NCBI GenBank assembly: GCA_025617745.1 | Contig: CM046859.1 | Span: forward strand, 26,711,371-26,775,370 | Origin: Heliocidaris erythrogramma | Lineage: Eukaryota; Echinodermata; Echinoidea; Camarodonta; Echinometridae | DNA length: 64,000 nt | Reading direction: 5' to 3' | In this document: positions 1-40,000 of the stretch, piece after piece | Position numbering within the stretch: position 1 is the first letter of the stretch | How the letters are laid out: every line of letters begins with the position of its first letter | The notes under the pieces: generated by a model | What the model saw: only the letters and a program-made list of their open reading frames with translations | What the model was told of the DNA's origin: nothing | Database searches by the model: none | Made by a program: the position numbers and the translations under genes

Positions 1-756
1 GTTTGAATATCATTTATGACAGGGTTATACTCACTAGGAACATAATACCTACAATCAATGCTTTCTTGTAAATCATACTCTTCAAGCATCATTTAAGCAC
101 ACCAATGTATTATTCCAAATTGACGAACACACTGCATGATCTGGTGTCATGATGGGGATATGTATTTGGTACGAGTTACAACTAATAAGGGGTAGCATAA
201 AAGAAAGTGGAAGACAATAATATATATACAAGTCTTGTACACAAGAAGCATACAAGTATATACAAATAAACACACAATTGTATGGCAAAGCATGAAACAA
301 GTGCACGACCATGCCCACCTTGATTTCAAAAAGAAAAAACAACAACAAAAAAAACATGATAGTGAGGTCAACAGAAGACCCCTCCAATACAGTTCATTTA
401 CGTAATGTAGCAACAATATAACACCAAACATTCCAGAGGCTGAGAGGCTTTGGTGTCGCTGTTGGTTACTATGCTTAGAACGACCTCACAACGCTCATCC
501 TGCTGTGTTTACGCTGTCATCGGATTCTTCCCGCTTGCCTTACAATTCAAAGTGGGAAATTCTGATCGGGACGATCAGCAAGAAATTTTGAAAATGTTCA
601 AAATTTCTTGCCGATCTGAAAAAATGCCCGCTTCTTCCCTGTCCTAACAACGCTACTGTTATGATGCTTCCTATTTCAAACGATCCCTATACGCTTCTGC
701 CGCTCTCCACCAGATCTTGATAGCAGAACGGGAGCTTTAGGTATTGAAATGACAGA
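1..756. other. Non-coding flank left of the first DIRS copy
   Basis: AT-rich sequence with no convincing exon on either strand. The only structure seen is a perfect hairpin at 578-611. It probably belongs to an intron or upstream region of the lectin gene whose last exons lie at 12.8-14.4 kb, but nothing here proves that. Confidence 0.5.
578..611. repeat. Perfect 15-bp inverted repeat with 4-base loop
   Basis: GCAAGAAATTTTGAA at 578-592 is followed by the loop AATG and its exact reverse complement at 597-611. The surrounding bases (GATCGGGACGATCAG, then CGATCTG) extend the symmetry imperfectly, so this may be the core of a small palindromic element. Function unknown. Confidence 0.75.
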
Positions 757-925
757 TTTACTGCAATAAATCATATATACCTACCTATTATGCCTGTAGT
801 CTTGACTACGGGACCCCTTCGAGAATTTATCACACATGTGTCACAATATTGTGCGCACCCCCCGTAATCCTATTGTCCCCTTCGCCACTCACGCGCGTCA
901 ATACGCTACGGCCATCTTCCTCTTT
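757..925 (+). repeat. Left terminal inverted repeat of DIRS copy 1
   Basis: From about 776 to 925 this is the reverse complement of 6171-6318 at the right end. The first ~20 bases differ from the right end and instead pair with the internal complementary region. Confidence 0.88.
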
Positions 926-1319
926 CTTGCTCGCCCCCGACGAGTTAGGACGTATTGTCACAGCGCTCCTGAAATCAGGTCGTATAGTATCTTTTTGGTG
1001 CGCTTTTTCGCATAGTTAAAGCACTTTTAGGTACCTATATTCGTTTAGATTATAGTACTTTGTGTTTTATTAGTCACTCTTGCCGATTGCAAGGGATTTT
1101 TTGATTCCCTTTCTTGGCATTTATTTTTCTCTTTCACGGTCAGCCCCACGTTTGTCACCGAGCCTTCGGGTTCGGTGTTTGTTCTTACGGTTTAGGCTGT
1201 GAAAATTTCTTTAGTGCGTATCTCCCAAATAAACTTTAGTTTTATTTACTGCATTCAGTTGAAGTATTTCTTAATTTGGAAAAGTATACTTTATTGTCTG
1301 TTTTATTGCAGTGGTATGA

Positions 1320-3570: not shown

Positions 3571-5331
3571 TGTTTTTCCCCGAGCGCTTGTTGACCGAAT
3601 GTGGTAGGTGGCCGACTTCATGCGTTTCTCCCCGCTTGGGAGGCCATCTCCGGGGACGGGTTTGTTCTCTCCGTCGTGCGAGACGGATTCTTCATAGATC
3701 TTTGCGCCTCGCTCCCCGGAGGGGCTATAAGAATTCGGTCACCTCCCATGTCTGCCCTGTCTCGGTCTCATGCTTCGAAGGAGATCGAGTCTCTTTTGGA
3801 AAAGAGGGCTATAGAAAGGGTAAGAGACAGGCCGTCTCTTTCCCTCTCTCCAATTTTTGTTATTCCCAAGCGCTCGGGAAAACTTCGTTTGATACTGAAC
3901 CTAAAGAGGATAAACAAATTTATTCCTCCGGTTCATTTTCGTATGGAGACTCTCGCCTCCATTCTTCCGTTGATCAAAAGGGAAGACTACGCGGTCTCGA
4001 TAGATCTCAAGGACGCGTACTTTCACATTCCCATTCATCGCGCTTCTCGCGATCTTCTGGGGTTCTCCTTCCTCTCAGAGACTTATCGTTTTCGGGCTCT
4101 TCCCTTCGGGCTGCGCCCGGCCCCTCGGGTTTTTACTCAAGTTGTAGCGGTGCTAGCGGCCTTTCTGAGGCGTCGCGGCCTGCGGTTGTTTTGTTACCTG
4201 GACGATTGGCTTCTCCTTGCGGAGTCGCGCGATCGTTTGTTGGACGAGACTCGTTTGCTCGTCTCTCTTACTCAAGACTTAGGTTTCCTAATAAATTGGG
4301 AAAAGTCAGAGTTAGTCCCCACTCGCAGCCCAGTTTTTCTGGGGGCGGTGTTAGACATAAGGAATCAGTTAGCTCGGCCCAGTCGAGACAGGATTCTCAC
4401 CATTGTCTCTGCGGCTCGCAAGCTCTTGCTGGCCAGAAGAGTCTCGGCCAGACAGTGGCTTCAGTTTCTAGGTTATCTAGCCAGTCTAGTCGATGTTCTA
4501 GAGGACTGCCGGCTCCTCATGAGACCCTTTCAGAGACATCTCCTCAGGTTCTTCAAGCCGGGAAAAGACTCCCTTTTGGTCTGGATTCCAGTACCAGTAA
4601 AGATCAAGTCTCTTCTTGCTTGTTGGACGAGCGAGGTGTTTCTCGCGCGAGGCAGGTCCTTCTCTGTCCCTCTTCCGTCGATATCGGTTTCGACGGACGC
4701 CTCTCGGTTGGGGTGGGGAGGACACTGCAACGGCAGCACGGTTGCGGGGGATTGGTCTCATCTTGGGACTCTTCCTCATATCACTGTCCTGGAGTTTATG
4801 GCAGTTCTGTTGACCTTGCTCCATTTCAGAAGTCGACTTCTCAGTCGTTCAGTTCTGATTCTCACGGACAACGTTACTGTGGCGGCATATATCAATCGGC
4901 AGGGAGGCACTCGTTCGGTTGCCTTGAATGCCCTAGCAGCTCAGCTGTGGAGGTGGTGTCGTCGCATGGCTATCACACCCGTGGCCTCTTTCATCCCCGG
5001 TCGGGAAAACCTCATTGCGGATTTTCTGTCCCGGGGCAGGTATCTTCCATCGGAATGGATGCTCCATCCGGAGGTATTTTGCCGCATTCACAGTTGCCTA
5101 GGTCCACTGGAAGTGGATCTATTTGCGTCGGTGCTAAATCACCAGCTGCCGAAGTATTGCTCCCGTGTTCGCGATCAGGGAGCATGGGCTCTCGATGCTT
5201 TCTCCCTCAGCTGGGAGAACCTTCAGGGATTCGCCTTTCCTCCCTTCCAACTGATTCCGCATGTCTTGCGGAATCTTGGAGTCTGCCTAAGGTCCTGGAG
5301 GCCTTGGCGAAACCTCCTTTCGAACCGTTAG
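3570..5331 (+). pseudogene. DIRS copy 1, reverse transcriptase / RNase H region (fossil)
   Basis: Shows the reverse transcriptase palm motifs (PIFVIPKRSGKLRLILN; SIDLKDAYFHIPI; the catalytic box CYLDDW). RNase H motifs follow (STDASRLGWGG, LEFMAVL, LTDNVTVAAYINRQGG, LIADFLSRG). Downstream, a VDLFAS...AFPPFQLIP block is typical of DIRS/Ngaro polyproteins, where a methyltransferase-like domain is often annotated. I cannot confirm that domain by eye. Confidence 0.9.
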
Positions 5332-5949
5332 GTGAAGCTTCGCTTCATCATCTTACGGTCAAGACGCTCTTTTTGGTAGCTATTGCCTCTGGGCAAGAGG
5401 CGCAGTACTCTTCATGCTCTCTGTCTTACTCCTGGTCATGTTCGCTGGGAGAGAAGAGGTGTTAGGTTGATTCCTAGGGCTTCTTTCGTTGCCAAGAATC
5501 AGACAGCTTCCTCTGGTCCTGTTGAGATTTTTCTTTGTCCGCTTTCTGACTTTTCTTCGGTGCGTGAGGACAAAGTTTGGTGTCCTGTTAGGGCTCTCAA
5601 ATGGTATATTGATAAGACTAAGTCTTATCGTAAGGATGATCAGTTGTTCCTGATCACTAGAGAGCCTTTTTCTCCTGCCTCTCTTGATTCCATTTCTAGA
5701 TGGATCGTTGAAGCTATTAGGGCCGCTGGCACAGTGGCTCTTTTATCCGACAGTAAGCCTCGTGCTCATGATACTCGTAGTGTCAGCACTTCTTGGGCTC
5801 TGTTTCAAGGTGTGGCGCTGGTTGATATTTTGAAGGCTGCTTATTGGCGTTCGCCCAATTCCTTCATTTCTTGCTACCTTAGGGATGTTCCCGCAGGTGA
5901 AGCTTTGTTTGCGTCAGCCACCTTGAAGGCCGCTGTGTCTTCTTTGTAG
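5332..5949 (+). pseudogene. DIRS copy 1, tyrosine recombinase region (fossil)
   Basis: Carries tyrosine recombinase C-terminal signatures: the H-x-x-R box AHDTRSVSTSWA and a late tyrosine in SCYLRDV, near the element's right end. In this family a tyrosine recombinase replaces the integrase of LTR elements. Incomplete relative to copy 2. Confidence 0.85.
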
Positions 5950-6016
5950 TCTTTGGTGTAATCCTATTTCCTTCCGCTCGAAACATGCCTCCCGGTCTTT
6001 GAGTTGGCGCTGGTCT

Positions 6017-6112
6017 GGCATAATAGGTAGGTATATATGATTTATTGCAGTAAATTTGTAAAATCAGCACTGATTTTCTTATTTACTATATAAATCTATA
6101 TACCTACCTATG
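6017..6112 (+). repeat. Internal complementary region of DIRS copy 1
   Basis: The first ~38 bases are the reverse complement of the extreme left end. The following ~58 bases are the reverse complement of the extreme right end. The two halves meet at GTAAATTTG, which marks the predicted circle junction. Confidence 0.88.
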
Positions 6113-6170
6113 ACCCTCCCTCCTTCCCCGCTCCTTGCAAGCAACATGTTTCTTCTTGGGGTTGCTCGCA

Positions 6171-6364
6171 AAAGAGGAAGATGGCCGTAGCGTATTGACG
6201 CGCGTGAGTGGCGAAGGGGACAATAGGATTACGGGGGGTGCGCACAATATTGTGACACATGTGTGATAAATTCTCGAAGGGGTCCCGTAGTCAAGACTAC
6301 AGGCATAATAGGTAGGTATATAGATTTATATAGTAAATAAGAAAATCAGTGCTGATTTTACAAA
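6171..6364 (+). repeat. Right terminal inverted repeat of DIRS copy 1
   Basis: Reverse complement of the left repeat up to GGCATAATAGGTAGG, then a right-specific outer end (to TTTTACAAA) that pairs only with the internal complementary region. Confidence 0.88.
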
Positions 6365-6818
6365 TTTGTCTCTTTCATCCCCTCAGAATACAATGTTGGA
6401 AATAACCAAAACTTAACCCCCCCACCCTTTTCTTTTTGTGCATCATGGGTTATTTTGGGGCACATTCTTACAAAGATTTTCTGTCTGCATTGATTTAAAT
6501 AGGTTATACTGTTAACAGGTATAACTAAGACCCCGTTTACACAGAGACTGAACTCGAGTTCATTTGTGTGTAAACAGGGTAGTCGCAATTAGAACTCGAG
6601 TTCAAAACTCGAATTCGAATGACGACCCAGAGCAACTTTTATCGAATTCAAACTCAACTATTATCAAATTTAAATTCGCTATTTGCAGTGTGAACGGACA
6701 CGTAATTGAAAGTCGACTAGCAAATAAATATCCAGCCAGTGACCCCGTCATACGTCACTTCTGGTATTGCTAAGCAACGCTAAGCATCGCGTCAGTAAAA
6801 CAAGCGTCATTTAACAAA

Positions 6819-6987
6819 TTTACTGCAATAAATCATATATACCTACCTATTATGCCTGTAGTCTTGACTACGGGACCCCTTCGAGAATTTAACACACATG
6901 AGTCACAATATTGTGCGCACCCCCCGTAATCCTATTGTCCCCTTCGCCACCCACGCGCGTCAATACGCTACGGCCATCTTCCTCTTT
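6819..6987 (+). repeat. Left terminal inverted repeat of DIRS copy 2
   Basis: Nearly identical to 757-925 and the reverse complement of 12126-12270. The outer bases (TTTACTGCAATAAATC) match the first half of the internal complementary region. Confidence 0.88.
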
Positions 6988-7399
6988 CTTGCTCGCCCCC
7001 GACGAGATAGGACGTATAGTCACAGCGCTCCTGAAATCAGGTCGTATAGTATCTTTTAGGTGCGCTTTTTCGCATAGTTAAAGCACTTTTAGGTACCTAT
7101 ATTCGTTTAGATTATAGTACTTTGTGTTTTAGTAGTCACTCTTGCCGATTGCAAGGGATTTTTTGATTCCCTTTCTTGGCACTTATTTTTCTCTTTCACG
7201 GTCAGCCCCACGTAGATATTTCTGTGTGTTTGCGGGTTTTTTTGTTTGTCACCGAGCCTTTGGGTTCGGTGTTTGTTCTTACGGTTTTTTAGGCTGTGAA
7301 AATTCTTTGTGCGTATCTCCCAAATAAAATTTACCCTTCTTTTACTGCATTCAGTTGAAGTATTTCTTATTTTGAAAAGTATACTTTATTGTCTGTTTT

Positions 7400-9630
7400 A
7401 TTGCAGTGGTTTGGATTCGGAAGAAGAAGCAGCTAGGTCAAGGAGACCTGCTTCTTCCGAAGAGTCGTCTAGCAAGACGACTCGGCCTTCCAGAACTCCC
7501 CCGAGTACTTCGGTACACGGGGGAGGGAGGAGGGCTAAGGGTAAGTTGCCTAGTGGTGTTTCCTTGCAGAGTTTGCCAGTCTCGGAGCTTGCAGCTTCGG
7601 GACGGGTGGCGTTAACTGAATCGGGATTGTCAACTCCGAAGCCCGTGGTTTCGGGGTGGGTGGCGTCAGATTCTAGTGGTTTGGATATCTCGAATCCAAT
7701 CCCCCGGTCGCTGAGACCAGAGGGGGGGGGCGGTTGTTTCCCGTACGGTAGCGTTCACTCGCTCTGATCCGTTAGGGGAGACGCGCCCCACTACTGCAGG
7801 GCAACCCACGGGCTTAGTCCATGTTGGTCTGGGTTCTCAAACCCTAGCCCCCGGCAAACGCCATATGGGGGAACGAGTACTTCCTGGGCTGTCTACATTG
7901 CCAGCTAATGGGAATGCTCGAGCTAACAATTATGGACGCTCTTCGGAGCAACAGGTGTTTTCACCTGAGTGCGTGACTACTAGTGCTCCCCTATTGCTGC
8001 TTTCTAGCGGTCCAATAGCGGGTTCACACGCCTTTAGTAGTCATCGGGCACATACCGGGTCATCTCGGTCTGCCCCCGCACTGGGAGCTTTTAGCTCCCA
8101 ACCCATGGCTACTGCATCTTCTTGCTTAGCCAATATGGGTGATTTGGGCGATTCTCTAGGCTTACGCCATGAGCGCTCCAATCCCTTTTTGGGGAAGTGA
8201 ACTTCCCTCCGCGGAGGGATCGGTTCGTGTTTCCGAAGAGGCTTCGGGGATCCGAACGAATCCGATTAAGCGTTCTAAGAAAAGGGTTTCGGCTACGACT
8301 CTTGTCGAGCCAGCCAAGAAAAAGGCCAAGAAGAAGGCAAAAAGTGGCAAGGCTTTGCCGGCCTCTTGCCCGTCTGGCCTGGCTAACCCACCTAGCTCCT
8401 CTCAAGCTGGCATGTTCAGTATGATGCAGGCTTTTGCTCAGAATCAGGGTTGGTCCTTTGTACCGGCTACTTCAACCCTGACTTCTGTCCCTATTCAGGG
8501 ATCTCGCTTTGAGTCTAATCAGCCTTTTGTGATTGATTTGTCTTTGTCTGAGTCGGATTCGCATGTGCCTCCTATTCCCGCGGCCCTTGGGGCTCCGCCG
8601 GGCGAGGAGACTTTTGTTGAACCATGCGGGGCTCTGCCTGCGGAGGCCTTTGTTAGCGTTCCTTTGTCTCGTTCCACTCAGGTGGAACCAGATTTGGATG
8701 TGGCCTCTCAAGCTTCGGTTTCTGAATCGCTTGGGCAGGCGGAGTCTCAATCGCTCGCTCTCTGTGGGGTGGAAGCGATTGCTTTGTTGTCCTAATATTT
8801 CCCTGAATTTCAGTCAACTCGCGCGCAGGGTTCGACTTCACGTTGGTTTAAGCAGCAGGATTCCTCTGAGGGCATTGCTCTTGAGGAGGATTTCAAGCTG
8901 GAGTATGACCGCATTGAGGCCGCGCTGTTGGTTAAGCGCCCTAATGCGGTCAAGAGTAAGGCTTTCACCTTTTGTTCTCAGGACCAAGACAGCTTTTTCA
9001 AAGCTAAGACTCTTTCTCCTGAGATTTTAGAGGTTGGTCGTCCCTTGCGGGCGACTAATCCGCTTACCTCCGCTGCGTTCAAGGCGGAGGATAAGATTTG
9101 GTTTAATATTGAAAACCAGGTTAGGTCAGGGATGCGTTTGGCGGCTTTTCAAGGGTTTCTCTCCGACCTTAGGTCCAGGGCGGAGGAGTTGAATGTTACT
9201 GATGGTGACAAGCTGGTTATTGACGACTTGCTGCATACTCTTTTTTGTCTGCAGTGGTCGCAGCTTTCCACCGCAGCTGCTTCGGCTACGTTCCGTCGCA
9301 GGACCTCGGCTCTCTCGGCACTGGGTGTTAGAGAGTCGGGCATTGCTCAACTTCTCCGGGATGTTCCGTCTCGCGGTCCTTCGCTTTTTGGTGGTAAATT
9401 CGCTATGGTTTTTCAGAGAGAGATCGATGCGCGAAAGCAGATCTCGGATATGACTAAGCAGTTTCACACTAGCTCTAAGCCAACGCGGGCCCCTGTTCAG
9501 CGTAGACCTGCTGGTCCTGTTTCGGGTCAACGCAGTCGCGTGTCTAGGGTCCCGCCTCCTGAGCCCCAGCCAGCTCCTTCTCGTGGGAGAGGGAGTCGTG
9601 GCAGGGGCAGTTCGAGAGGTTCTCGGTTCG
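7400..9630 (+). pseudogene. DIRS copy 2, gag-like region (fossil)
   Basis: Same composition as in copy 1: Ser/Pro-rich start, Lys-rich patch, Arg/Gly-rich tail. Broken; described only as a fossil part. Confidence 0.7.
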
Positions 9631-10930
9631 CGGAGTCGCGCGATCGTTTGTTGGACGAGACTCGTTTGCTCGTCTCTCTTACTCAAGACTTAGGTTTCCT
9701 AATAAATTGGGAAAAGTCAGAGTTAGTTCCCACTCGCAGCCCAGTTTTTCTGGGGGCGGTGTTAGACATAAGGAATCAGTTGGCTCGGCCCAGTCGAGAC
9801 AGGATTCTCACCATTGTCTCTGCGGCTCGCAAGCTCTTGCTGGCCAGAAGAGTCTCGGCCAGACACTGGCTTCAGTTTCTAGGTAGATAGCCAGTCTAGT
9901 CGATGTTTTAGAGGACTGCCGGCTCCTCATGAGACCCTTTCAGAGACATCTCCTCGGGTTCTTCAAGCCGGGAAAAGACTCTCTTTTGGTCTGGATTCCA
10001 GTACCAGTAAGGATCAAGTCTCTTCTCTCTTGTTGGACGAGCGAGGTGTTTCTCGCGCGAGGCAGGTCCTTCTCTGCCCCTCTCCCGTCGATATCGGTTT
10101 CGACGGACGATTCTCGGTTGGGGTGGGGAGGACACTGCAACGGCAGCACGGTTGCGGGGGATTGGTCTCATCTTGGGACTCTTCCTCATATCAATGTCCT
10201 GGAGTTTATGGCAGTTCTGTTGACCTTGCTCCATTTCAGAAGTCGACTTCTCAGTCGTTCGGTTCTGATTCTCACGGACAATGTTACTGTGGCGGCATAT
10301 ATCAATCGGCAGGGAGGCACTCGTTCGGTTGCCCTGAATGCCCTAGCAGCTCAGCTGTGGAGGTGGTGTCGTCGCATGGCGATCACACCCGTGGCCTCTT
10401 TCATCCCCGGTCGGGAAAACCTCATTGCGGATTTTCTGTCTCAGGGCAGGTATCTTCCATCGGAATGGATGCTCCATCCGGAGGTATTTTGCCGCATTCG
10501 CAGTCGCCTAGGTCCACTGGAAGTGGATCTATTTGCGTCGGTGCTAAATCACCAGCTGCCGAAGTATTGCTCCCGTGTTCTCGATCAGGGAGCATGGGCT
10601 CTCGATGCTTTCTCCCTCAGCTGGGAGAACCTTCAGGGATTCGCCTTTCCTCCCTTCCAACTGATTCCGCGTGTCTTGCGGAAAATCAGGGAAGATCGGG
10701 CGCGGGTGCTTGTAATAGCTCCCTTTTGGCCCCGGAGGAATTGGTTTCCAGAACTTATGAGCCTCCTAAGGGCTCAACCGTTCGTTCTCCCGTTAAGAGC
10801 GGATCTGGTGTTGCAGCCCCTATCGGGGATTCTTCACCACAGTCCGGAGTCTCTTCATTTGACTGCTTGGCCCCTGTCAGGGAATCTGCAAGACAGTCGG
10901 GTCTCTCTGATAGAGCCACGGACTTTTTAA
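9630..10930 (+). pseudogene. DIRS copy 2, reverse transcriptase / RNase H region (fossil, partial)
   Basis: Retains the RNase H motifs (STDDSRLGWGG, LTDNVTVAAYINRQGG, LIADFLSQG) and the downstream VDLFAS...AFPPFQLIPRVL block. Much of the reverse transcriptase part seen in copy 1 is absent. Confidence 0.85.
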
Positions 10931-11904
10931 TGTCCAGTCGTAGGGTTTCTACTAGGGAAATTTACAATTCCCGTCTCTCGGTCTTTTTCCTTTGGTGCAA
11001 AGAGAGAAATCAAACCCCTTCTAAGGCTCCTATTGGTTCAATTGCGGATTTCTTAATCTCGTTATTTGACAAAGGGAGATCTATCTCTACTATCCGAGGC
11101 TACCGTTCGGCGATCGGGGCCATTCATTCGGGTTTCTCAGATGGTTCGGGGATTTCCAATTCCCCGCTACTAAGTGGTTTGATTCGTTCGTTCTTTCTGA
11201 AACGACCTTCTTTTTCTAAGTTAGTGCCGTCTTGGAGTCTGCCTAAGGTCCTGGAGGCCTTGGCGAAACCTCCTTTCGAACCGTTAGGTGAAGCTTCGCT
11301 TCATCATCTTACGGTTAAGGCGCTCTTTTTGGTAGCTATTGCCTCTGGGCAGAGGCGCAGTACTCTTCATGCTCTCTGTCTTACTCCTGGTCATGTTCGC
11401 TGGGAGAGAAAAGGCGTTAGATTGATTCCTAGGGCTTCTTTTGTTGCCAAGAATCAGACAGCTGCCTCTGGCCCTGTTGAGATTTTTCTTTGTCTGCTTT
11501 CTGACTTTTCTTCGGTGCGTGAGGACAAAGTTTGGTGTCCTGTAAGGGCTCTCAAATGGTATATTGATAAGACTAAGTCTTATCGTAAGGATGATCAGTT
11601 GTTCCTGATCACTAGAGAGCCTTTTTCTCCTGCCTCTCTTGATTCCATCTCTAGATGGATCGTTGAAGCTATTAGGGCCGCTGGCACAGAGGCTCTTTTA
11701 TCCGACAGTAAGCCTCGTGCTCATGATACTCGTAGTGTCAGCACTTCTTGGGCTCTGTTTCGAGGTGTGGCGCTTGTTGATATTTTGAAGGCTGCTTATT
11801 GGCGTTCGTCCAATTCCTTCATTTCTTGCTACCTTAGGGATGTTCCCGCAGGTGAAGCTTTGTTTGCGTCAGCCACCTTGAAGGCCGCTGTGTCTTCTTT
11901 GTAG
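10700..11904 (+). pseudogene. DIRS copy 2, tyrosine recombinase region (fossil)
   Basis: The longest recombinase region of the three copies. It shows an N-terminal SAM-like segment (STREIYNSRLSVFFLWC), the first catalytic arginine box (SGQRRSTLHALCL), the H-x-x-R box (AHDTRSVSTSWA) and the late tyrosine (SCYLRDV). Overlaps the end of the RNase H region in another frame, a known DIRS layout. Confidence 0.88.
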
Positions 11905-11971
11905 TCTTTGGTGTAATCCTATTCCCTTCTGCTCGAAACATGCCTCCCGGTCTTTGAGTTGGCGCTGGTCT

Positions 11972-12066
11972 GGCATAATAGGTAGGTATATATGATTTAT
12001 TGCAGTAAATTTGTAAAATCAGCACTGATTTTCTTATTTACTATATAAATCTATATACCTACCTAT
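11972..12066 (+). repeat. Internal complementary region of DIRS copy 2
   Basis: Same construction as 6017-6112: the reverse complements of the left and right outer ends joined at GTAAATTTG. Confidence 0.88.
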
Positions 12067-12125
12067 GACCCTCCCTCCTTCCCCGCACCTTGCAAGCAAC
12101 GTGTTTCTTCTTGGGGTTGCTCGCA

Positions 12126-12318
12126 AAAGAGGAAGATGGCCGTAGCGTATTGACGCGCGTGAGTGGCGAAGGGGACAATAGGATTACGGGGGGTGCGCAC
12201 AATATTGTGACTCATGTGTGTTAAATTCTCGAAGGGGTCCCGTAGTCAAGACTACAGGCATAATAGGTAGGTATATAGATTTATATAGTAAATAAGAAAA
12301 TCAGTGCTGATTTTACAA
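12126..12318 (+). repeat. Right terminal inverted repeat of DIRS copy 2
   Basis: Inverted copy of the left repeat, ending at GCTGATTTTACAA. The next bases (GTTCATC) belong to the interrupted host element. Confidence 0.86.
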
Positions 12319-18391: not shown

Positions 18392-18513
18392 ACGTAAAAG
18401 CAAGTTACTATCTGGGCGCTCCTGTGGGCAGCAGACCATATAGCCCTTAACCCAAACTTTGCTTGCCGACATAAGGCTACATAGTACACGGCTCCTCGTC
18501 ACAATTTTAAGGG

Positions 18514-20150
18514 ATACTTAAAATTTTCTGTAGAATCTGATTTTTTGTGCTATATCCCCTATTTTGGGGGTGCTGAACATGAATTTACTTGTTGCCATTT
18601 TTCTAAATGACGTCTTCGGCCGTTGCCATGGTAACGAAATATTTTCTAAAAAATAACATGTATCTCGTAACAAACAACATAAAAATATAATGTTAGTGAT
18701 GAAGTGCATCAGTTTCAGGCTACCCGTTCGATTAAAATCAAAATCACAGTTGTCAAAAGTCATGTTATGCTCAAAAAGGGCCGTTGCTATGGTAACGCCT
18801 AATTTTTTTCAGAAAATAGCATATTTCTGCAATAAAAACATAAAAACATAATAGAAGTGTTTAAATATATCTATTTCATGCCAAAACCTTGATTTCCATC
18901 AAAGTCTTGGTCGTGCAAAGTCATATTTATGCCACAACATGGTCGTTGCTATGGCAACAATATGGTAGAAATTGGTATTTTAAGAAAAAATATAGCTTTT
19001 TTGTATCAAAACAAAAAAGAAAACATATTAAAATGTCTAAGTACACATACTTTCCACTTTCCAATTCTTTTAGGTCTAGATGAAGATTTTCAGGTAACAG
19101 TCATGCCTGATTTGACAGTTGCTATGGCAACAAAATGATGCAAAAGTTAAAGTAGGTATGAATGGCTTATGAAATCAATAACAAAAGTGTATAGGCTAAT
19201 ATACCCAAAACGTACCCCATCCTCCTAGACACAGTTTCATCCATTCTGTTATTTTTGGTTACCCAGATGAATCAGTTATCATTATGTGCCTATTTGCCAT
19301 CAATTTGGTGGTGGATGAAAGTGCTAAAGACGTTGCCATAGTAACAAATTACTTCTCATATAATAACATACAACATAAATATTTTTTTTTCAGAAAATAG
19401 CATATTTCTGCAATAAAAACATAAAAACATAATAGAAGTGTTTAAATATATCTATTTCATGTCAAAACCTTGATTTCCATCAAAGTCTTGGTCGTGCAAA
19501 GTCATATTTATGCCACAACATGGTCGTTGCTATGGCAACAATATGGTAGAAATTGGTATTTTAAGAAAAAATATAGCATTTCTGTATCAAAACAAAACAT
19601 ACAACATAATAAGAAATGCCTAAGTACACATACTGTCCACTTTCTGATTCTTTTCAGTCTAGATGTAGATTTTGAGGTAATAGTCATGCCTGATAGGACA
19701 GTTGCTATGGCAACAAATGATGCAAAAGTTAAAGTAGGTATGCGTAGCTTATGAAATTAATTTCAGTGCATTTGTTAACATACCTAAAATCTACCCCCTC
19801 CCCTTGGACATATTTTTTGTCCTCACTCTGTTCTTTCTTATTACCCAGTTGTCTCGGCCATCAATATCATTATCTGCCTCTTTGCCATAAAAAAGGGATG
19901 GTGGATAAACGTGCCAGAGACGTTGCCACGGTAACAAATTAATTTCATAAAGTAAAATATCTTTGAGTAAACCATGTAAAGGCATAAAGTTAATATCTAA
20001 GAACATCTCTTCCAGCTACTAGTTAGGCCGCAATTAACATCTGAATTATCCCAGTTCATGGTTATGCTAAAAAATGGCCGTTGCTATGGGAACGTCTGAA
20101 TATTCAGAAAAGCATGTATTTGTAATGGAACAATCAATCAAGTCAGGTAG
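18514..20150 (+). repeat. Left arm with nine X-box-like palindromes
   Basis: Palindromes at 18622-18635, 18783-18796, 18945-18958, 19118-19131, 19332-19345, 19526-19539, 19701-19714, 19922-19935 and 20080-20093, all fitting GTTGCYAYRGNAAC. The segment from 18810 recurs almost unchanged from 19391 (offset 581) for ~200 bp, so part of this arm is a recent internal duplication. A weak tenth motif at 22523 lies beyond the LINE remnant. Confidence 0.85.
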
Positions 20151-20389
20151 AATTTCCGAGATCCATGTCATTTGTCATTCATAAGTTCAGCAATGTCTCG
20201 CGTCTCCTGGAGACCAGTGTCCATCGTTAATGAATCGACATGTCCTCCTAGGTCTCCCTCTTCTTGCTTCTCCATGAAGGGGTTTCCACAGGACCACTCA
20301 GTGTAGTGTGAGCTCTGGATGCCTTTGATCATGCACTGAAAGCTTCAATCTCCTCTGGGTTACTTTGGAGCTGACCTTTGGAAGGTTTC

Positions 20390-22070
20390 CCTACAGCTCA
20401 GAGTTCCTCAATCTTGTTGCGAATTGGTTGACGTTCAGAGCCATCCTTTAACATTCTAGTGTAGCACCCATCAACCATCTGAGTAAGTCTCTTTGTAAGG
20501 GCCCAGGCCTCTGACCCATACAACAAAACATACTCCACCGTAGCTGTGAAGAGACTTATCTTTAGGACTTTACGGAGGTCTGATTCCCATACCGACTTAA
20601 AGCTGTAGCATACTGCCCAGGCTTTCTTCACCCTATCCACAACGTCATTCTCTGTGTTCCTGATATTTGCTCCCAAGTACAGGAAGTCATCCACCAATTC
20701 AATTGGCTTCCCACCAGCACTCACGATTCCCTCTGGCTCCAAGACGTTCTCCAGCAGATAGTCTTGCTCTCATTTATCCGCAGTCCTACATTCATAGATA
20801 CCTCCTCCACCTCTCCCAGTAACTCCTCTGCCTCCTTTACTGTGTTTGTCAACAGAACTATGTCGTCAGCAAACTTAGCATCTGATATCTTCTTAGCCTT
20901 AACTCTCCTGCTCCAAGGCGGAGTTACAGTGAAGCCATATTAATGGTGTTTCTCCAGTGCCAGGGTCAATTACGATCACAAAAAGATATGGAGCTAATAT
21001 GTCACCCTGGAGTACTCCAGTCTGTATCTCAAACTCTGTCAGCCCATCGGGTGTGATAACCTGGGCGTTGGTGTTTCTGTACAGCAGGGATATCAGGTCC
21101 ATCTTCTTGGGGATTCCATAAGCCCATACGATGTTCATGAGGCAGTTTCGGTCTACTGAATCAAAGGCTTTTCTAAAGTCACTGAACACCATGACAGCAG
21201 GGAGGCTCTTTGCTCTAGCACCCTCAAGAATGCTCCTGACTAGTGACAGATCTCCCCTCTCTAAAGCCATTCTGACTGTCTCTGAGCTGCTTCTCAATCT
21301 CTGGCTGGATTCGGTTCAGAATCATCCTGTTGATGGTCTTTGCAGCAATGCAAGTATTAGTGAGATGCCCCTGTAGTTGTTGGTGTCAGTGAGGTCACCT
21401 TTCTTTGGTACTGGGAGAGTGTTACTTACCCTCCATTGATCTGGGAAAACACTCTTCTCTAGTGCCTGATTACAGAACTCCAGGCTGATATCACTAAAAT
21501 CACATCTCTTCATCACCTCCCGCGACACTCCATCATCTTCATACCCCTTACCCTCCTTGATTCCCCCCCCCCCCCGCTCTCTTAAGCTCCTCACTGGTAA
21601 AGGGCCTGTCTCGATATCCATATCTTTGAATAGCTGCCTGATCACCCTGGTGTTCTGATATGTGGTAGGGGTTTGTCCTCGTAAGGCCACTTCCCCTTCC
21701 TACTCAAGGCCTGTTCTTTGATCTGACTCGAACTCCCTCTCTTCCTCCCCGTGATCTCATTGATGATCGTCCAACTCCCTATGCTCTTACAACTGTCTGC
21801 TGCTCTCTCAACTCTCCTGATCTTCTCAATCAGCAAAGACTCCTCCCTAGCTTTAGTGTAGTTGGCACGAGTTCTTCCTTCCTATCCTCAACACACTTCT
21901 TCTTCTCTCCGAAGGATCAGCACAGAACTCGTCCATAGCAGCTCTTAGGTGTTCTATGGCTGCACACACTCTGGGATCTTCAGAGTAGTCATCTGTCATC
22001 TTCCTCTTCCTCTTCAGCACCAAGGCCTCTCCAGCTTCTGTTACTGCAGTGGTGAAGTGAAGAAATTATA
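20390..22070 (-). mobile_element. LINE (non-LTR retrotransposon) fragment, reverse transcriptase part
   Basis: Minus-strand remnant of a LINE ORF2. In order: a pre-RT segment (~22060-21700; EAGEALVLKRKRKMTDD, HLRAAMDEFCADPS), RT motifs (SDTNNYRGISL near 21350; FSDFRKAFDSVDR near 21170; GVLQGDILAPYLF near 21010; catalytic FADD at 20862-20873), then the thumb region (LVDDFLYLGANIRNTEND; LLYGSEAWALTKR) to ~20398. The frame shifts several times and the endonuclease half is absent, so it is 5'-truncated and dead. Clade not assigned. It lies in the loop of the foldback structure and may have interrupted the left array, since a weak array unit reappears at 22523. Confidence 0.87.
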
Positions 22071-22071
22071 G

Positions 22072-23779
22072 TTGATAAAGTAGGAACATGAGGAAGGCAT
22101 TCCCCATTCCCCAAACTCAGAAATTCTCCATTTTCGGGCCGACATGAGGTCACAATAGGTCATGTAACTTGGTAACGGTATGACCGATTTTTGATGTCAA
22201 AACATGATGTCACAGGATGTAGAAGAGAAGAGAAAAACTCAGAGAATGGCGTGGCGCGAAATGCAGTGGTTCGAAACGTGTGGCGATATTTGTCTCAGAC
22301 CCCCCCCCCCCCCCCCCCCCCCCCCAGTACAAAGGGTTAATTACCCAGGTCTCAGCTGTTATGATATATTAAACAGATGATGGGTGTTGAATATTGGAAT
22401 TTTAAAAAAAACATACACTTTCTGGCTGACATCATGCAAATGGAAAATCAGGGTCTAACGTTAAATGTGCTTTTCTGCAAGATTCCCAGTCGATAAAGGC
22501 CGTGATCATGCCAGACAAGGGTCATTGCTATAACAAACCTGTGATAGACAAAAAGAATGTGTAACAAGATTGTTTTTGAATAATTGACAACATTTGGCAA
22601 TGATTTGATTTGATTTGATTTTATTCGTCAGAATCGTCAGGTATATTACAATACAAACATAACCAGGTACCATGACAGGATAGCCCATGAAGCCCGAAAC
22701 GGCTTATTTCCAATGGGGTCCTTAAATGGCAATGGATTTGTAGCTGAATCTGGACTGTTGCTGAACAACGTTAAGCTGCAAAAAAGGGGGAGTTAAAAGT
22801 ATGCGTGCTAGGCCTACAAAATTAATGGGTACAAACGTAATATTGGCTGCTTCAAAATTTTATCCTCCTGCCTCTCCTATGTAACATCTTAATGCATGTT
22901 GTAGGATGTGAACTTGTAGATCTTGCCCATCAATAGAGGCTTTTCAGTTCCTGCAGATTATTGAAATGGCTTAGAGGATGATTATTGCTTGTTCCAGCGA
23001 GCAAGGTCTTATCTGCAACTAATAGGTGCCCTTTAAAGGTCACAACTGAGTTCTACAAAGTGTTAAACCTTAGTATCAATGAACACAGGAGGAAAACTGC
23101 TAGAGGAACTGGTAGATCTAGTCTCCTTCTGGGCCTGACTTGATCTAGATATAGTTTATATGCATTTAGCTAGGTCAGAGCAGAATTGGAGACCTCATAG
23201 GGTGCCTCCAGACCTCCAGGTTCATGTAAGCATCTGAGAATGCAGTCTTCGAGTAACAACCGCTGCATGCAGGGCTGTGTGACATCTACTCAGGCATGTT
23301 GTTGTTTTTAACCACGATCTACGTATTTAATGTTTTCAAATTGCTATAAATATTGTAAATATTGAAATGTATTGCCTCTTGTTATTAGTAAGTAATAATA
23401 CAATTGTATCACATCAATCATATCAAAAGAGCCTCCTTTGAAGCCCACACTATCTACATGTAGGCAGGCTGTTCAATTCATGGATATTTTCATAACAAAC
23501 GGGCAGATGATAGCTACAAAAGGCTAATAGGCTTATAGAAGAAGATAAAGGAAAAAGGTGTCTAATACGACAGGGTAGTATTGCAGTAGATGTACTCCGT
23601 TTGTTTTCAGTGTATTTGTTTACTATCACCATTGAGTTTGATGTCCTTTTGAGGGAGGATTGCGTTTATTCGTTGGAGTATGACCTTCGCCCCTTTTGGC
23701 CAGTATCTTGTTAGTGTAAGTATGATCAAATAAACGGTTGGTAGACATGATTGTGACTGGTAGTCGTTCAATGATGTCA
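22072..23779. other. Loop region between the X-box arms, no gene seen
   Basis: AT-rich. Contains a poly(C) run at ~22302-22325, a GATTT pentamer run near 22596-22622, and one weak array-type unit (GGTCATTGCTATAACAA, 22520-22537). No coding evidence. Confidence 0.5.
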
Positions 23780-25497
23780 TGGTTGCAGCGGCGGGATAAT
23801 AATGTCATATCAGGACGTTGCCATAGCAACGGCCATGTTTTGCCATAAAGCTGCCTATGAATAACTAACAATTTAATGAATATGAAAGAGGTACATTGAA
23901 CTACATTTGATATATTCTTGGACACTTGTATTATGCTTTTATGTATGTTATATTTAGATATATGTAAAGGCTATACATTTTTCTTTCAAAATTTCAAAAT
24001 TTAACTGATCGATTACCATGTCAATGTCTCTGGAATGTTTGGATTTATCACTCACCACCAGTTTAACAGCAATCAGGGAAGATTTTTTTTTCACATCAAT
24101 TTGTTGTCATAGCAACTGTTCTATCAGACATGATTGTTACCTTAAATATATATCAAAAATATATCTTCATTGAAAATAATTGGACAGTTGGAAATTTGTG
24201 ATATTTTTACTACTTTCTTAGACATTGTTTTTTGTGTTAGTGTTAAGATAGAGAAATACCATATTTTTCCTCAAAATATCAGTCTCAACCTGGTCGTTGC
24301 CATAGTAACGACCATATTATGGTATAAATACATTGTTGTAAGACTTTGCATGACCAAGATTTTGATGGCAATCAAATTTGGAGCATGAAACGGACAAACG
24401 AAGACACTTGTTATGTTTATACGTTGTTGCATCACAAATATATGGCATTTTCTAGAAATTCAGATATTACCATGGCAACGGCCAATTTGGAGCCTAACCA
24501 TGACCTTTGATAAGCCAGATGTTAACTGCAAGGCAATGTGCAGCTTCAAAGAGAGATTCTGAGAAATTAACGACATGTATTTATGTTGTATGTATTTATA
24601 TTTATGAAAAATATGTTATTATATGAGAAGTAATTTGTTACCATGGCAACGTCTTTAGCACTTTCATCCACCACCAAATTGATGGCAAATAGGCACATAA
24701 TGATAACTGATTCATCTGGGTAACCAAAAATAACAGAATGGATGAAACTGTGTCTAGGAGGATGGGGTACGTTTTGGGTATATTAGCCTATACACTTTTG
24801 TTATCGATTTCATAAGCCATTCATACCTACTTTAACTTTTGCATCATTTTGTTGCCATAGCAACTGTCAAATCAGGCATGACTGTTACCTGAAAATCTTC
24901 ATCTAGACCTAAAAGAATTGGAAAGTGGAAAGTATGTGTACTTAGACATTTTAATATGTTTTCTTTTTTGTTTTGATACAAAAAAGCTATATTTTTTCTT
25001 AAAATACCAATTTCTTCCATGTCGTTGCCATAGCAACGACCATGTTGTGGCATAAATATGACTTTGCACGACCAACACTTTGATGGAAATCAAAATTTTG
25101 GCACGAAATAGATATATTTATACACTTCTATTATGTTTATGATTTTTCATTTCAGAACTATGCTATTTTCTGAACAATTTTAGGCGTTACCATAGCAACG
25201 GCCCTTTTTGAGCGTAACCAGACCTTTGACAAATATGATTTTGATTTTTTAATCGAACGGGTAGCCTGAAATTGATACACTTCATCACTAACATTATATT
25301 TTTATGTTGTTTGTTAAGAGATATATGTTATTTTTTAGAAAATATTTCGTTACCATGGCAACGGCCGAAGACGTCATTTAGAAAAATGGCAACAAGTAAA
25401 TTCATGTTCAGCACCCCCAAAATAGGGGATATAGCACAAAAAATCAGATTCTACAGAAAATTTTAAGTAACCTTTCAACTTGCCATGTACTAACAGG
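23780..25497 (-). repeat. Right arm with nine X-box-like palindromes (inverted)
   Basis: Palindromes at 23817-23830, 24103-24116, 24296-24309, 24466-24479, 24637-24650, 24851-24864, 25024-25037, 25186-25199 and 25349-25362. 24600-25497 pairs with 18514-19370 of the left arm. The 581-bp duplication of the left arm is absent here. The inner part (23.8-24.6 kb) is more diverged. Confidence 0.85.
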
Positions 25498-34000: not shown

Positions 34001-37000
34001 GTTTTGACCAGTAAAACTCATATCATTATCGGTTAAGTGAGATTCAGATTGGCGGACACAGAACAGACCGCTTCGGTAATGTATGCAAATTGTATACATA
34101 CCTTTCAAACAAAGGTTGTTCTTGACAACCTGAAAGCTTGCCTGACAGAGCAACAATTAATGTACGCAAACTGGATTCCAAGCAGGTTAATGGAATAGCT
34201 CGTCACTAGGTACTTAGTGAATATATATGTGCATAAATTTGTATACATTACAGAAGCGGTCTATTAAATATTCCCATTTCACGTAGTGACATCCCGGTAA
34301 AATCTTACAAACAGGGAAAATAGGCCATCCCCTAAATATGAATCATGGAGTGGGATTTAAAAGTACAATCTATGGCAATATTCATTGTTTCTTAGTCAAT
34401 CGTTGCAATAAGCTAATAAGCATCAAATAGAGAGAGCGAGAGAGGAAAATAGCAAAAATGCCCTGGATCACTCTTCTAGCGTTTAAGCCGAATTGGAACA
34501 ATTAAACGCACCAGATTCTTTTAGTAGTTCAAGAACCTCGAACTTTAGTGAGATGAACTTAATTTCCCATTCTAGAGGTAATAACATCAAGTGAAATTTG
34601 CCAGTAAGTCATGCTCCTTGGTGTTCTTTTTCACAATATTTCCGTGTCCGAACAAACTGCCAGCTTCATAATTGCCCCCAGAGGACATAGGCCTGTATTC
34701 TTGTTTCCCGGTTTTCCGGTTTTACTTAAACTCCAGCCCAAGTTTAACCAGAGTTTAATTAAAACTGACTTAGACCACAAGTCTAGTCCAAATTTCTGTA
34801 CAAAGTTAAACCACACTGGAGTTAAACAGGAGTTAAACCTGGTTTAAAGGGTAGGTTTAGACTGGGTTTAACCACGCTTAGACTGCGGTTTAAGTTAAAG
34901 GGAAATTAACCTCAGCGTATGAATTAGCTTATTTTGAATGGTGTAGTATATGCCTCTTATTTGATACATGCAATTTCATGTAAAAACACAGGATATAGAT
35001 ATAAATCACTATTTTCCAGCCAAGTTATCGTCTGCTAGCAATAATAAGGGGGCTGCCATTACTTTATGTGTACACGAACATATTTTTCATCCCAAGTAAA
35101 ATTTCCTTCATCGTTAACTTGTAATTGATTTTTAGAGGACAAATATATATTAGATAAAGTCACATATTCTGAAATGTAAGTTTAGTTTTATATATTTTTT
35201 AAAAGGTCTTAATTTGTTCATAAAAAATATACTTCATAAAAAATATACGTCAAGGACGGAGAATTGACGTCAAGGACGGAGACAATCGTAACAATACCAA
35301 AACAAAGCGAGGAATCTGCTTTACAGGATGGCTATTAGAACTCATGGGTCGTCAATTATCTAGGCCCATGGCCAATAACAATCGTAATACAATCAGAACA
35401 AAGCGACGTATCTGTTGTAAAGGTAGGCTATTATCAATGCATATGGTACCTAATGATCCGTGTCATGCACAAAATGGCAGCCTCCATGGAAAGACGTAGC
35501 AGACAATAGGTGCATCTAGAATATCACGTGGGGTTACTTGTCCTTTAAACCGGAGTTCAGAATATGGATAACTATCCCTAGAGAATTACCCTCATGGACA
35601 ACCGTACCCGGACATGGAGTAAAAATATCTCCGGGGGTAAGGGATGTAAGGAAACAATTTTTTTTTAATTTAATGTACCTCTCACACATGACACTTTTAA
35701 ATTCCTTTTCTACTTAATATTTTTCTTCTTGTTTTTAATTCACGGCCAAAGCCAGGAGCATCACGAGAGGAGCGGGGTACAGTGTGACGATCTCCACCCT
35801 CATTTGATATTATTTTTCTGTCGACAAAATTGCACATGTTTGTGATCTTTTATGATTACTTCTCCTCTTATTCCTTTTCTTCCTTGTTGGAAAACGTGTA
35901 GAACATTTGCAAATTAGACAATCTAAAAAGTTTGAAAATTTAATAATCTAAATCTGGGCCTGATGGAGAACAATTTTTGATCTGATCACCCCCCCCCCCC
36001 CCCCCCCCAACTCAAAATGGTCTACCGATGCCTGTGCTTGAATCCCCGTTCTTCTTACCTCCCTAAATATTCCCTCGCCCGATACCGTTACTGTTCTCCC
36101 TTCCTCTTCGTTCTTTCCTATAGTTCTTCTGAGGTTTTTTCTCTCTCTCTTTCTCTTTATCCTTCTCATTCCACCCTTTAAAATCCTTCCAAATAATTAT
36201 GTATAGATGCAATTCCATTAAACGAGCAAACCCTTAGAACGGACATGACCGTCGGTGTCAACACTACCAGATCTTTACAACAACTCAAGTTACAACATTT
36301 AGCAAACAGCAGCGTCGCTAGATGGAGAGAGAGAGAGAGACAGAGACAGAGGGAGGAGGGGGGTGTTCTGACATAATTTGCTAAACAAGTTTGTCGACAA
36401 TTTTACTGATGAGCAAAGGAAGAAGAAAAAATGGCCGGTTTCTTAGATTTTCAATAATTATTGAAAGGAAAACATAAGACGGTTGCTAGATTTTAAAATT
36501 TACCGACAACATGTTAGAAAATTTCCAACAAGCAAAAGGAATGTCAGAAAAATATTGAATTGGGGTGTTGGTATTATATACACATGCCACATGCCATCAT
36601 TTTGGTCCTCCCAACGCCCTAGTCTGGTCCTAAATACTCACGCATTCATTGCACGACCAGCCGATGTTGGTGTTGGCTTGTCGCAGTGCCTTCACGGCGT
36701 CGCTGTCGTGTAGTTGTCCCTTTCTTCTCATGCAGGGTTCGTGGAAGACGAGTGTACAGATCCGACATGGGAACAGCTCATGACCCGTGTTGGTCTGACA
36801 TAGGGTGCATTTCTGCTCGGAGGTGATCTAAAGGAAAGAAAGAGAATTCTAAGATCAACACTGATTTTCTTATTTACTATATAAATCTATATACCTACCT
36901 ATTATGCCTGTAGTCTTGACTACGGGACCCCTTCGAGAATTATCACACATGAGTCACAATATTGTGCGCACCCCCCGTAATCCTATTGTCCCCTTCGCCA

Positions 37001-40000
37001 CTCACGCGCGTCAATACGCTACGGCCATCTTCCTCTTTTGCGAGCAACCCCAAGAAGAAACATGTTGCTTGCAAGGAGCGGGGAAGGAGGGAGGGTCATA
37101 GGTAGGTATATAGATTTATATAGTAAATAAGAAAATCAGTGCTGATTTTACAAATTTACTGCAATAAATCATATATACCTACCTATTATGCCAGACCAGC
37201 GCCAACTCAAAGACCGGGAGGCATGTTTCGAGCAGAAGGAAATAGGATTACACCAAAGACTACAAAGAAGACACAGCGGCCTTCAAGGTGGCTGACGCAA
37301 ACAAAGCTTCACCTGCGGGAATATCCCTAAGGTAGCAAGAAATGGAGGAATTGGGCGAACGCCAATAAGCAGCCTTCAAAATATCAACAAGCGCCACACC
37401 TTGAAACAGAGCCCAAGAAGTGCTGACACTACGAGTATCATGAGCACGAGGCTTACTGTCGGATAAAAGAGCCTCTGTGCCAGCGGCCCTAATAGCTTCA
37501 ACGATCCATCTAGAGATGGAATCAAGAGAGGCAGGAGAAAAAGGCTCTCTAGTGATCAGGAACAACTGATCATCCTTACGATAAGACTTAGTCTTATCAA
37601 TATACCATTTGAGAGCCCTAACAGGACACCAAACTTTGTCCTCACGCACCGAAGAAAAGTTAGAAAGCGGACAAAGAAAAATCTCAACAGGACCGGAGGC
37701 AGCTGTCTGATTCTTGGCAACGAAAGAAGCCCTAGGAATCAATCTAACACCTTTTCTCTCCCAGCGAACATGACCAGGAGTAAGACAGAGAGCATGAAGA
37801 GTACTGCGCCTCTGCCCAGAGGCAATAGCTACCAAAAAGAGCGTCTTAACCGTAAGATGATGAAGCGAAGCTTCACCCAACGGTTCGAAAGGAGGTTTCG
37901 CCAAGGCCTCCAGGACCTTAGGCAGACTCCAAGACGGCACTAACTTAGAAAGAGAAGGTCTTTTCAGAAAGAACGAACGAATCAAACCACTTAGAAGCGG
38001 GGAATTGGAAATCCCCGAACCATCTGAAAAAAACCCGAATGAATGGCCCCGATCGCCGAACGGTAGCCTCGGATAGTAGAAATAGATCTCCCTTTGTCAA
38101 ATAACGAGATTAAGAAATCCGCAATTGAACCAATAGGAGCCTCAGAAGGGGTCCAGACCAAAAGAGAGTCTTTTCCCGGCTTGAAGAACCTGAGGAGATG
38201 TCTCTGAAAGGGTCTCATGAGGAGCCGGCAGTCCTCTAAAACATCGACTAGACTGGCTAGATAACCTAGAAACTGAAGCCACTGTCTGGCCGAGACTCTT
38301 CTGGCCAGCAAGAGCTTGCGAGCCGCAGAGACAATGGTGAGAATCCTGTCTCGACTGGGCCGAGCTAACTGATTCCTTATGTCTAACACCGCCCCCAGAA
38401 AAACTGGGCTGCGAGTGGGGACTAACTCTGACTTTTCCCAATTTATTAGGAAACCTAAGTCTTGAGTAAGAGAGACGAGCAAACGAGTCTCGTCCAACAA
38501 ACGATCGCGCGACTCCGCAAGGAGAAGCCAATCGTCCAGGTAACAAAACAACCGCAGGCCGCGACGCCTCAGAGAGGCCGCTAGCACCGCTACAACTTGA
38601 GTAAAAACCCGAGGGGCCGGGCGCAGCCCGAAGGGAAGAGCCCGAAAACGATAAGTCTCCGAGAGGAAGGAGAACCCCAGAAGATCGCGAGATGCGCGAT
38701 GAATGGGAATGTGAAAGTACGCGTCCTTGAGATCTATCGAGACCGCGTAGTCTTCCCTTTTGATCAACGGAAGAATGGAGGCAAGAGTCTCCATCCGAAA
38801 ATGAACCGGAGGAATAAATTTGTTTATCCTTTTTAGGTTCAGTATCAAACGAAGTTTTCCCGAGCGCTTGGGAATAACAAATATTGGAGAAAGGGAAAGA
38901 GACGGCCTGTCTCTTACCCTTTCTATAGCCCTCTTTTCCAGAAGAGACTCGATCTCCTTTGAAGCATGAGATCGAGACAGGGCAGACATGGGAGGTGACC
39001 GAATTCTTATAGCCCCTCCGGGGAGCGAAGCGCAAAGATCTATGAAGAATCCGTCTCGCACGACGGAGAGAACAAACGCGTCCCCGGAGATGGCCTCCCA
39101 AGCGGGGAGAAACGCGTGAAGACGGCCACCTACCACATTCGGTTGAACAAGCGCTCGGGGAAAAACATCAAAACCCAGGCTTGGCCTTCTGCGAAGCCAT
39201 CGCCTTACCACGAGTACCTCTCGAAATGCCCCTGCCACGACTCCCTCTCCCACGAGAAGGAGCTGGCTGTGGCTCAGGAGGCGGGACCCTAGACACGCGA
39301 CTGCGTTGACCCGAAACGGGACCAGCAGGTCTACGCTGAACAGGGGCCCGCGTTGGCTTAGAGCTAGTGTGAAACTGCTTAGTCATATCCGAGATCTGCT
39401 TACGCGCATCGATCTCTCTCTGAAAAACCGTAGCGAATTTACCACCAAAAAGCGAAGGACCCCGAGACGGAACATCTCGGAGAAGTTGAGCAATACCCGA
39501 CTCTCTAACACCCAGTGCCGAGAGAGCCGAGGACCTGCGACGGAACGTAACCGAAGCAGCTGCGGTGGAAAGCTGCGACCACTGCAGACAAAAAAGAGTA
39601 TGCAACAGGTCGTCAATAATCAGCTTGTCACCATCGGTAACATTCAACTCCTCCGCCCTGGACCTAAGGTCGGAGAGAAACCCTTGAAACGCCGACAAAC
39701 GCATCCCCGACCTAACCTGGTTTTCAATATTAGACCAGATCTTATCCTCCGCCTTGAAAGCGGCGGAGGTAAGCGGATTAATCGCCCGTAAGCGACGACC
39801 AACCTCCAAAATCTCAGGAGGCAGAGTCTTAGCCTTAAAAAAGCTGTCTTGGTCCTGAGAACAAAAGGCAAAGGCCTTACCCTTGACCGCATTAGGGCGC
39901 TTAATCAACAGCGCGGCCTCAATGCGGTCATACTCCAGCTTGAAAACCTCCTCAAGAGCGATACCCTCAGAGGAATCCTGCTGCTTAAATTTCCAACGCG

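Follow-up and report, generated by a model that had tools for sequence, protein, structure and literature searches.

Foldback transposons with repeated arms and satellite-bearing Helentrons are already known. Foldback elements of the FB, TU and Galileo kinds make target-site duplications of 8-9 bp, and TU combines arms of ~15-bp repeats with 8-bp target duplications; in a different setting, satellite repeats of ~160-170 bp that are otherwise unlike one another have in common the CENP-B box, a short motif to which a protein binds. A sea-urchin foldback report dates from 1983 (as cited in PMC4079207). Here we describe a foldback element in a 64-kb stretch (the window) of the genome of the sea urchin Heliocidaris erythrogramma (contig C7, 26711371-26775370), followed through the 1.064 Gb (26 contigs) of that genome. 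The mitochondrial code agrees with an echinoderm host: COX1 (contig C24) is free of stops under six of the seven codes tried, but its customary asparagines, in our judgement, come out only where AAA stands for asparagine (tables 9 and 14), and serine for AGA and isoleucine for ATA are likewise in keeping with the echinoderm code. The element occupies 18484..25490 of the window (7,007 bp, GTACACGGCTCC... / ...CTTGCCATGTAC), and its arms are arrays built around a 14-bp palindrome that resembles the RFX X-box. The sequences suggest, and we hold with confidence a little short of even, that unlike mobile elements share a site for a host factor of RFX type, kept through putative RFX docking, somewhat as satellites share the CENP-B box. 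The case is carried by the anatomy and dispersal of the element, by conservation of the 14-mer in the foldback family and in a second repeat family (B), by the presence of the same 14-mer in families A and B, and by an RFX1/2/3-type exon in the host.

The window holds 23 places with at most two mismatches to GTTRCCATGGYAAC, as against 0.60 on average and at most 3 in shuffled windows. Eighteen of them are in the arms, at 18622-25362, divided evenly about the centre with nine to a side; 3 match exactly, 13 differ at one base and 2 at two. The remaining five lie at 46-54 kb. The left-arm palindromes, all on the plus strand, are L1 at 18622..18635 (GTTGCCATGGTAAC), L2 at 18783..18796 (GTTGCTATGGTAAC), L3 at 18945..18958, L4 at 19118..19131, L6 at 19526..19539 and L7 at 19701..19714 (these four GTTGCTATGGCAAC), L5 at 19332..19345 (GTTGCCATAGTAAC), L8 at 19922..19935 (GTTGCCACGGTAAC) and L9 at 20080..20093 (GTTGCTATGGGAAC). 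Those of the right arm, on the minus strand, are R9 at 23817..23830, R8 at 24103..24116, R7 at 24296..24309, R6 at 24466..24479, R5 at 24637..24650 (exact), R4 at 24851..24864, R3 at 25024..25037, R2 at 25186..25199 and R1 at 25349..25362 (exact). Counted from the outside, the left-arm spacings are 161, 162, 173, 214, 194, 175, 221 and 158 bp and those of the right arm 163, 162, 173, 214, 171, 170, 193 and 286 bp.

The X-box consensus is given as GTNRCC-N0-3-RGYAAC (PMC10530576), with a looser form, RTNRCC-N1-3-RGYAAC, and a loosest one, RYYNYY N1-3 RRNRAC (PMC2375033). The initial annotation had judged the palindromes close to this site, and by sequence the likeness holds: on either strand, 15 of the 18 arm sites fit the first form, 16 the second and all 18 the third. 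L9 and R8 fail the strict consensus; R6 fails the GTNRCC form and fits the RTNRCC one. Counting strands, strict matches number 19 in the 7,007 bp of the element versus 3 in the other 56,993 bp of the window. Elsewhere in the window, two short inverted-repeat element copies at ~52376-52600 and 53690-53900 (...GTTGCATAAAACTTACCATTAATGG...) contain several TTACCAT/ATGGTAA half-sites and the sites ACTACCATGGTAAC and TTTACCATGGTAAC, and are possibly a further mobile family with X-box-like half-sites; at 45270-46965 there is another inverted-repeat pair (155 bp, 88%), with GTTGTCATGGTATC and GATACCATGGCAAC sites in or near it at 46393 and 47143.

The palindrome is the conserved part of the foldback arms, both between units and between copies, as the initial annotation had supposed from one copy. 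With the motif masked, BLAST (E 1e-4, alignments of at least 40 bases) sorted the 18 arm units into six groups. Units of different groups (122 pairs), compared without gaps, are 0.87 identical at the 14-mer versus 0.27-0.40 at offsets of 14 bases or more; the comparison is tilted towards this result because the arm sites were recognised through their resemblance to the motif. The 14-mer varies mostly at positions 6 and 11, and isolated odd letters occur at 4, 8, 9, 10 and 14. Gapped pairwise identity of the flanks proved uninformative, shuffled flanks scoring 0.74, and was dropped in favour of the ungapped offset profile. In the two comparisons between copies, the motif played no part in the choice of the other copies, although it was the window or the consensus that fixed where the motifs lie. 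Across 31 aligned arms, divergence is 3.1% in the motif columns (six consensus sites) versus 6.4% in the spacer, and sliding the motif pattern to 234 other placements gave no value as low. The initial annotation had called for an alignment of copies, and for the foldback family this again finds the 14-mers diverging more slowly: relative to the window arm, 29 other ends have substitutions at 2.3% of motif positions, 5.9% of spacer positions and 1.5% of the tip (the outermost ~120 bp).

That the structure is a mobile foldback, as had been proposed, is borne out by dispersed copies with defined ends. The outer 261 bp of the arm gave at least 40 matches, the window's two included, all at 95% identity or more (the best 40 of 266 candidates were scored, so that the count is a lower bound), and the next 591 bp gave at least 41, three of them in the window (best 40 of 339 candidates scored). 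Among the 40 end matches listed, 20 form, by our pairing, ten inverted pairs including the window's own, ~5.7-15.4 kb end to end; a copy of 15.4 kb lies at C1:57389568-57405006. We read four further copies, of which two have both termini fitting the pattern and two only one; compared with the copy C12, main blocks of the others and of the window element are 87-97% identical.

Genome-wide, the exact motif occurs 10,252 times, versus 6 for a reversed-pattern control and 11 expected from base composition, and pairs of exact sites lie 145-174 bp apart in 2,889 cases versus 105-134 bp apart in 14. The surroundings were sampled in 20 of the 28 clusters counted among the listed exact sites, which span only the first 4.5 Mb of contig C1. 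Two repeat families account for 15 of these clusters and for 28 of the 33 exact sites: A (nine clusters, two of which are one duplicated region; ~161-bp units) and B (six clusters; 157-160-bp units), so that mobile DNA does appear, on this sample, to spread RFX-type sites as the initial annotation had suggested. The other five clusters have one exact site each, and two of them are one duplicated region. The foldback family of the window is in none of the 20. Exact palindromes at L058:3001, L060:3001 and L051:3001 lie outside any repeat family recognised and are candidate ordinary host X-boxes; the 6-kb stretches L052/L054 and L053/L055 of contig C1 are 97% alike over their full length, as duplicated regions ~0.35 Mb apart.

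Families A and B are housed in elements of roughly 0.7-1.1 kb, whose anatomy we read by eye from alignments of six B and eight A loci, not every locus showing every part. The A elements have a sub-terminal inverted repeat (subTIR) TACCCCCGCC, a tetranucleotide microsatellite, a CTAG-TT end and a weak 3' hairpin; the B elements have an inverted repeat with subTIR, an RF palindrome, a 3' hairpin and a CTAG-TT end. CTAG is an end of Helitron type, and the anatomy of both families resembles that given for oyster HINEs (PMC7492417), which makes them candidate HINE-like or Helentron-like elements. Motif-masked models of A, B and the foldback units did not recognise one another, even at E 10, and on that ground we rejected a descent of the arms from the same repeat as A and B. 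In family B, after omission of the anchoring unit of each cluster (which left 12 units in either family), 2 of 168 motif letters are changed (1.2%) versus 103 of 1,607 spacer letters (6.4%), and 1 of 112 windows is as low. A palindrome is noted at array junctions of the Donax element DTC84 in the portion of PMC5139131 drawn on here; in A and B the array boundaries lie, by eye, ~75-110 bases from the palindrome, and its use as a junction marker was rejected. With the boundaries so placed, we found no positive evidence for the suggestion that the palindromes serve in replication or recombination.

A cognate protein domain is present in the host. Twelve matches to the RFX domain were found at exon level, and exon L070 encodes an RFX1/2/3-type DNA-binding domain (E 1.3e-33 to the human RFX1 of PDB 1dp7, 2.1e-7 to RFX5). 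Six of the 12 matches fall at 35.39-39.46 Mb of contig C11, three of them with internal stops, and are perhaps duplicated or decayed RFX-type genes. The observations extend to the motif, to its conservation in two of the three families and to the presence of this domain; that RFX binds these copies, that binding benefits the element, and in which cells, is what we infer. Vertebrate male germ cells express RFX. The window element would belong to a family of non-autonomous foldback DNA transposons that an enzyme mobilises in trans, its arms arrays of strongly diverged units of ~160-220 bp around an RFX-type X-box palindrome that would be kept for docking of a host RFX-family protein as a dimer, one per unit. 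Docking in RFX-expressing cells (ciliated cells and, by analogy with vertebrates, perhaps male germ cells) may keep the DNA of the element open or transcribed; open or transcribed DNA might favour its movement and could aid the spread of elements from more than one class. Two dissimilar Helentron-like families, which are more frequent in the sample, would have arrived at the site independently, as the same solution.

A first alternative, somewhat unlikely in our estimation, is that the palindromes bind the cognate transposase missing from the element and, as in Galileo, add dimer sites within long inverted arms, their resemblance to X-boxes being due to chance. The arms are foldback terminal inverted repeats (TIRs), and in Galileo the internal TIR repeats are described as holding additional transposase binding sites (PMC4079207); the tip, at 1.5% substitutions, is also as well kept as would be expected of an end recognised by a transposase. 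Against this stands the same 14-mer in families A and B, whose CTAG-TT ends and sub-terminal inverted repeats (read by eye) point to other machinery, so that a transposase-binding role is hard to square with them. Nor was any transposase-like frame recognised by eye among frames of at least 90 codons in the five copies read, four of which had no domain search.

Several observations weigh against RFX docking. The arm units were recognised by the motif, so that the statement that every unit has one is partly true by definition, and the 286-bp interval in one arm could hide a unit that lacks it. Some stretches of spacer equal the motif in conservation: across the 31 arms, 7.5% of the 1,484 single spacer windows diverge no more than the median motif window does. 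Single-change variants of the palindrome across the genome (position 6/9 C-to-T 1,661; 5/10 C-to-T 628; 2/13 T-to-C 282; 7/8 A-to-G 254) show no clear signature of RFX tolerance: changes in the central spacer (7/8) do not exceed those at 2/13, though the centre of an X-box is spacer, and the foldback family of the window itself inflates the 6/9 figure (on contig C1 alone, with neighbours merged, there are 60 clusters of 6/9 changes versus 33 of 5/10). Family A, with 11 of 167 motif letters changed (6.6%) versus 134 of 1,601 in the spacer (8.4%), gives no support for conservation of the motif because 40 of 112 windows are as low; in the 12 units the only change to its core CCATGGCA is one gap. 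A relative of family B (L064:265-1804) has ten tandem units of ~155 bp with no site within three mismatches, which shows that the repeat can amplify without the palindrome; the motif was gained or lost within this lineage. Finally, since it was a search for the motif that led to A and B, their carrying it is no independent evidence; only the number of families and their mutual dissimilarity count.

Some of these points would suit neutral hitchhiking, a rather unlikely reading in which a few source elements that had the palindrome by chance were amplified, conservation reflecting young age and homogenisation among arms and copies. Family A shows no excess conservation, the variant counts look to us like ordinary decay, the B relative has its ten motif-free units, and conversion between arms does seem to occur. 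Homogenisation, however, would act on the spacers too, yet the six spacer groups of the foldback arms, unjoined by BLAST, still agree across groups at the 14-mer; and base composition predicts 0.0017 exact sites in 1,000 families of 160 bp, whereas at least two families (A and B) have the exact consensus site. Hitchhiking thus fits family A better than it does the foldback arms. It seems improbable that RFX is uninvolved and that the palindrome is bound by a different host protein (a chromatin or replication factor akin to CENP-B) or phases nucleosomes: a ~160-bp period in repeats that have the motif in common but are otherwise dissimilar does recall the CENP-B-box situation, but the variation of the motif in the arms stays close to the published X-box consensus and the host has the cognate RFX domain.

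RFX docking can be taken further, to a reading that we consider possible though doubtful: that at least two unlike classes (the TA-flanked foldback and the two Helentron-like families) independently adopted an X-box at a period of ~160 bp, that most perfect palindromic X-boxes of the genome are transposon-borne, if the 20-cluster sample from C1 is representative, and that RFX acts on such elements as CENP-B does on satellites. If true, RFX would bind the repeat arrays as a host dimer, organising their chromatin and driving their spread, and the ciliary or germline regulatory network would go on receiving ready-made X-boxes from the elements. If RFX binds the arrays, a factor best known from cilia would be exploited by several unlike transposon families at once, with thousands of strong sites scattered across one genome, and it would become testable whether host-factor sites are a point of convergence for repeat families and whether transposons are a source of new ciliary regulation. 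If it does not, the palindrome still points either to some factor that unlike mobile elements have in common or to amplification by chance. RFX sites in transposons are not new as such, since amplification of RFX-family sites by short interspersed elements (SINEs) is reported in the pig (PMC10471783); in the open-licence PubMed Central literature we found no report of X-box palindromes in transposon arrays, or of one RFX-type palindrome common to foldback and Helentron elements.

The limits of the element, put at 18514-25497 in the initial annotation, are corrected to 18484-25490 by its termini, which have GTACAYGGC in common ahead of the long inverted arms, and by the dinucleotide TA (a target-site duplication or a fixed TA) at 18482..18483 on the left and 25491..25492 on the right. 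In the end loci L005-L034, each of the 29 termini that were recognised, the window's included, has TA in front of it, and the flanks of the copies diverge there; these flanks have only TA in common, with no target-site duplication of 8-9 bp. The left arm (18484..20110, plus strand) and the right arm (23800..25490, minus strand), whose inner limits are approximate, are inverted repeats, 96-97% complementary across the outer ~870 bp, and with their internal repeats give the element its foldback form. The interior (20398..21699, minus strand) has broken reverse-transcriptase fragments, with RVT_1 recognised within 20899-21315 (E 2.6e-10). Their presence in all five copies read led us to reject a later insertion that split the window copy, and those of the window and C12 are broken at the same place. 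Because no transposase-like frame was recognised and the five copies share this interior, the element is taken as non-autonomous and copied together with its captured fragment. Rfam gave no match in the window at gathering scores.

Nine palindromes per arm and mirrored outer spacings, both described in the initial annotation, are accurate for the window copy and peculiar to it. The four other copies read have 16 sites each (at most two mismatches), six in one arm and ten in the other, versus 18 in the window copy, and nine-per-arm symmetry as a design feature is rejected. In these copies the six-site arm has spacings of 161-162, 162, 175-176, 220-222 and 157-159 bp (one interval of 149), and the ten-site arm, the counterpart of the window's right arm, 162-163, 162, 172-174, 214-217, 171 and 170 bp and then variable ones. 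The outer left arm of the window copy (18502..19370, plus strand) agrees at 95% with the right arm of C12 and at 87% with the left arm, so that part of one arm seems to have been replaced from the other, probably by arm-to-arm conversion; also on the plus strand, 19384..19612 repeats 18803-19031 at 97%, and the left arm has more units than in the other copies read. The mirror symmetry of the window copy would thus stem largely from exchange between arms, and because the arms are near-identical the mirrored spacing is no independent evidence.

The window has other repeats as well. Three related retroelement copies, at ~752-12277 (two in tandem, ~6.1 kb apart) and 36888-42003 (one, inverted), with RVT_1 and further long frames, look DIRS-type in our judgement, RVT_1 being confirmed only in the first copy. 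Direct repeats of 98-99% identity lie on either side of the third copy, at 34895-35508 and 42242-42846, ~7.3 kb apart. Tandem 168-bp pyrimidine-rich units at 48321-48650 sit inside a stretch of strong C-over-G bias at ~47-50 kb.

Among described systems, Tetris of Drosophila virilis resembles the window element in being a non-autonomous foldback with long TIRs and internal tandem repeats (~220 bp in Tetris) variable in number, with no coding capacity and with no autonomous partner found (PMC4079207); compared by description only, it differs in that the portion of PMC4079207 drawn on makes no mention of an X-box palindrome, while TA flanks and a captured reverse-transcriptase fragment belong to the window element. 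Galileo of Drosophila, as cited in the same source, likewise has internal repeats in long inverted arms, but these hold transposase sites, whereas the motif of the window element is common to families with different ends. The sea-urchin TU elements are echinoderm foldbacks with repeated arm domains; in place of their short repeats and longer duplications, the window element has units of 160-220 bp and TA. Cg_HINE and pearl of bivalves (PMC7492417, PMC5139131) combine short satellite-like arrays of ~160 bp with sub-terminal inverted repeats and a 4-base microsatellite, the layout of non-autonomous Helentrons, and families A and B look similar by eye; unlike the bivalve elements, A and B have in common an RFX-type palindrome in their repeats, which goes unmentioned in the portions of those two papers drawn on. 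The CENP-B box, finally, is a different motif, and its arrays are centromeric, whereas those described here lie in dispersed mobile elements.

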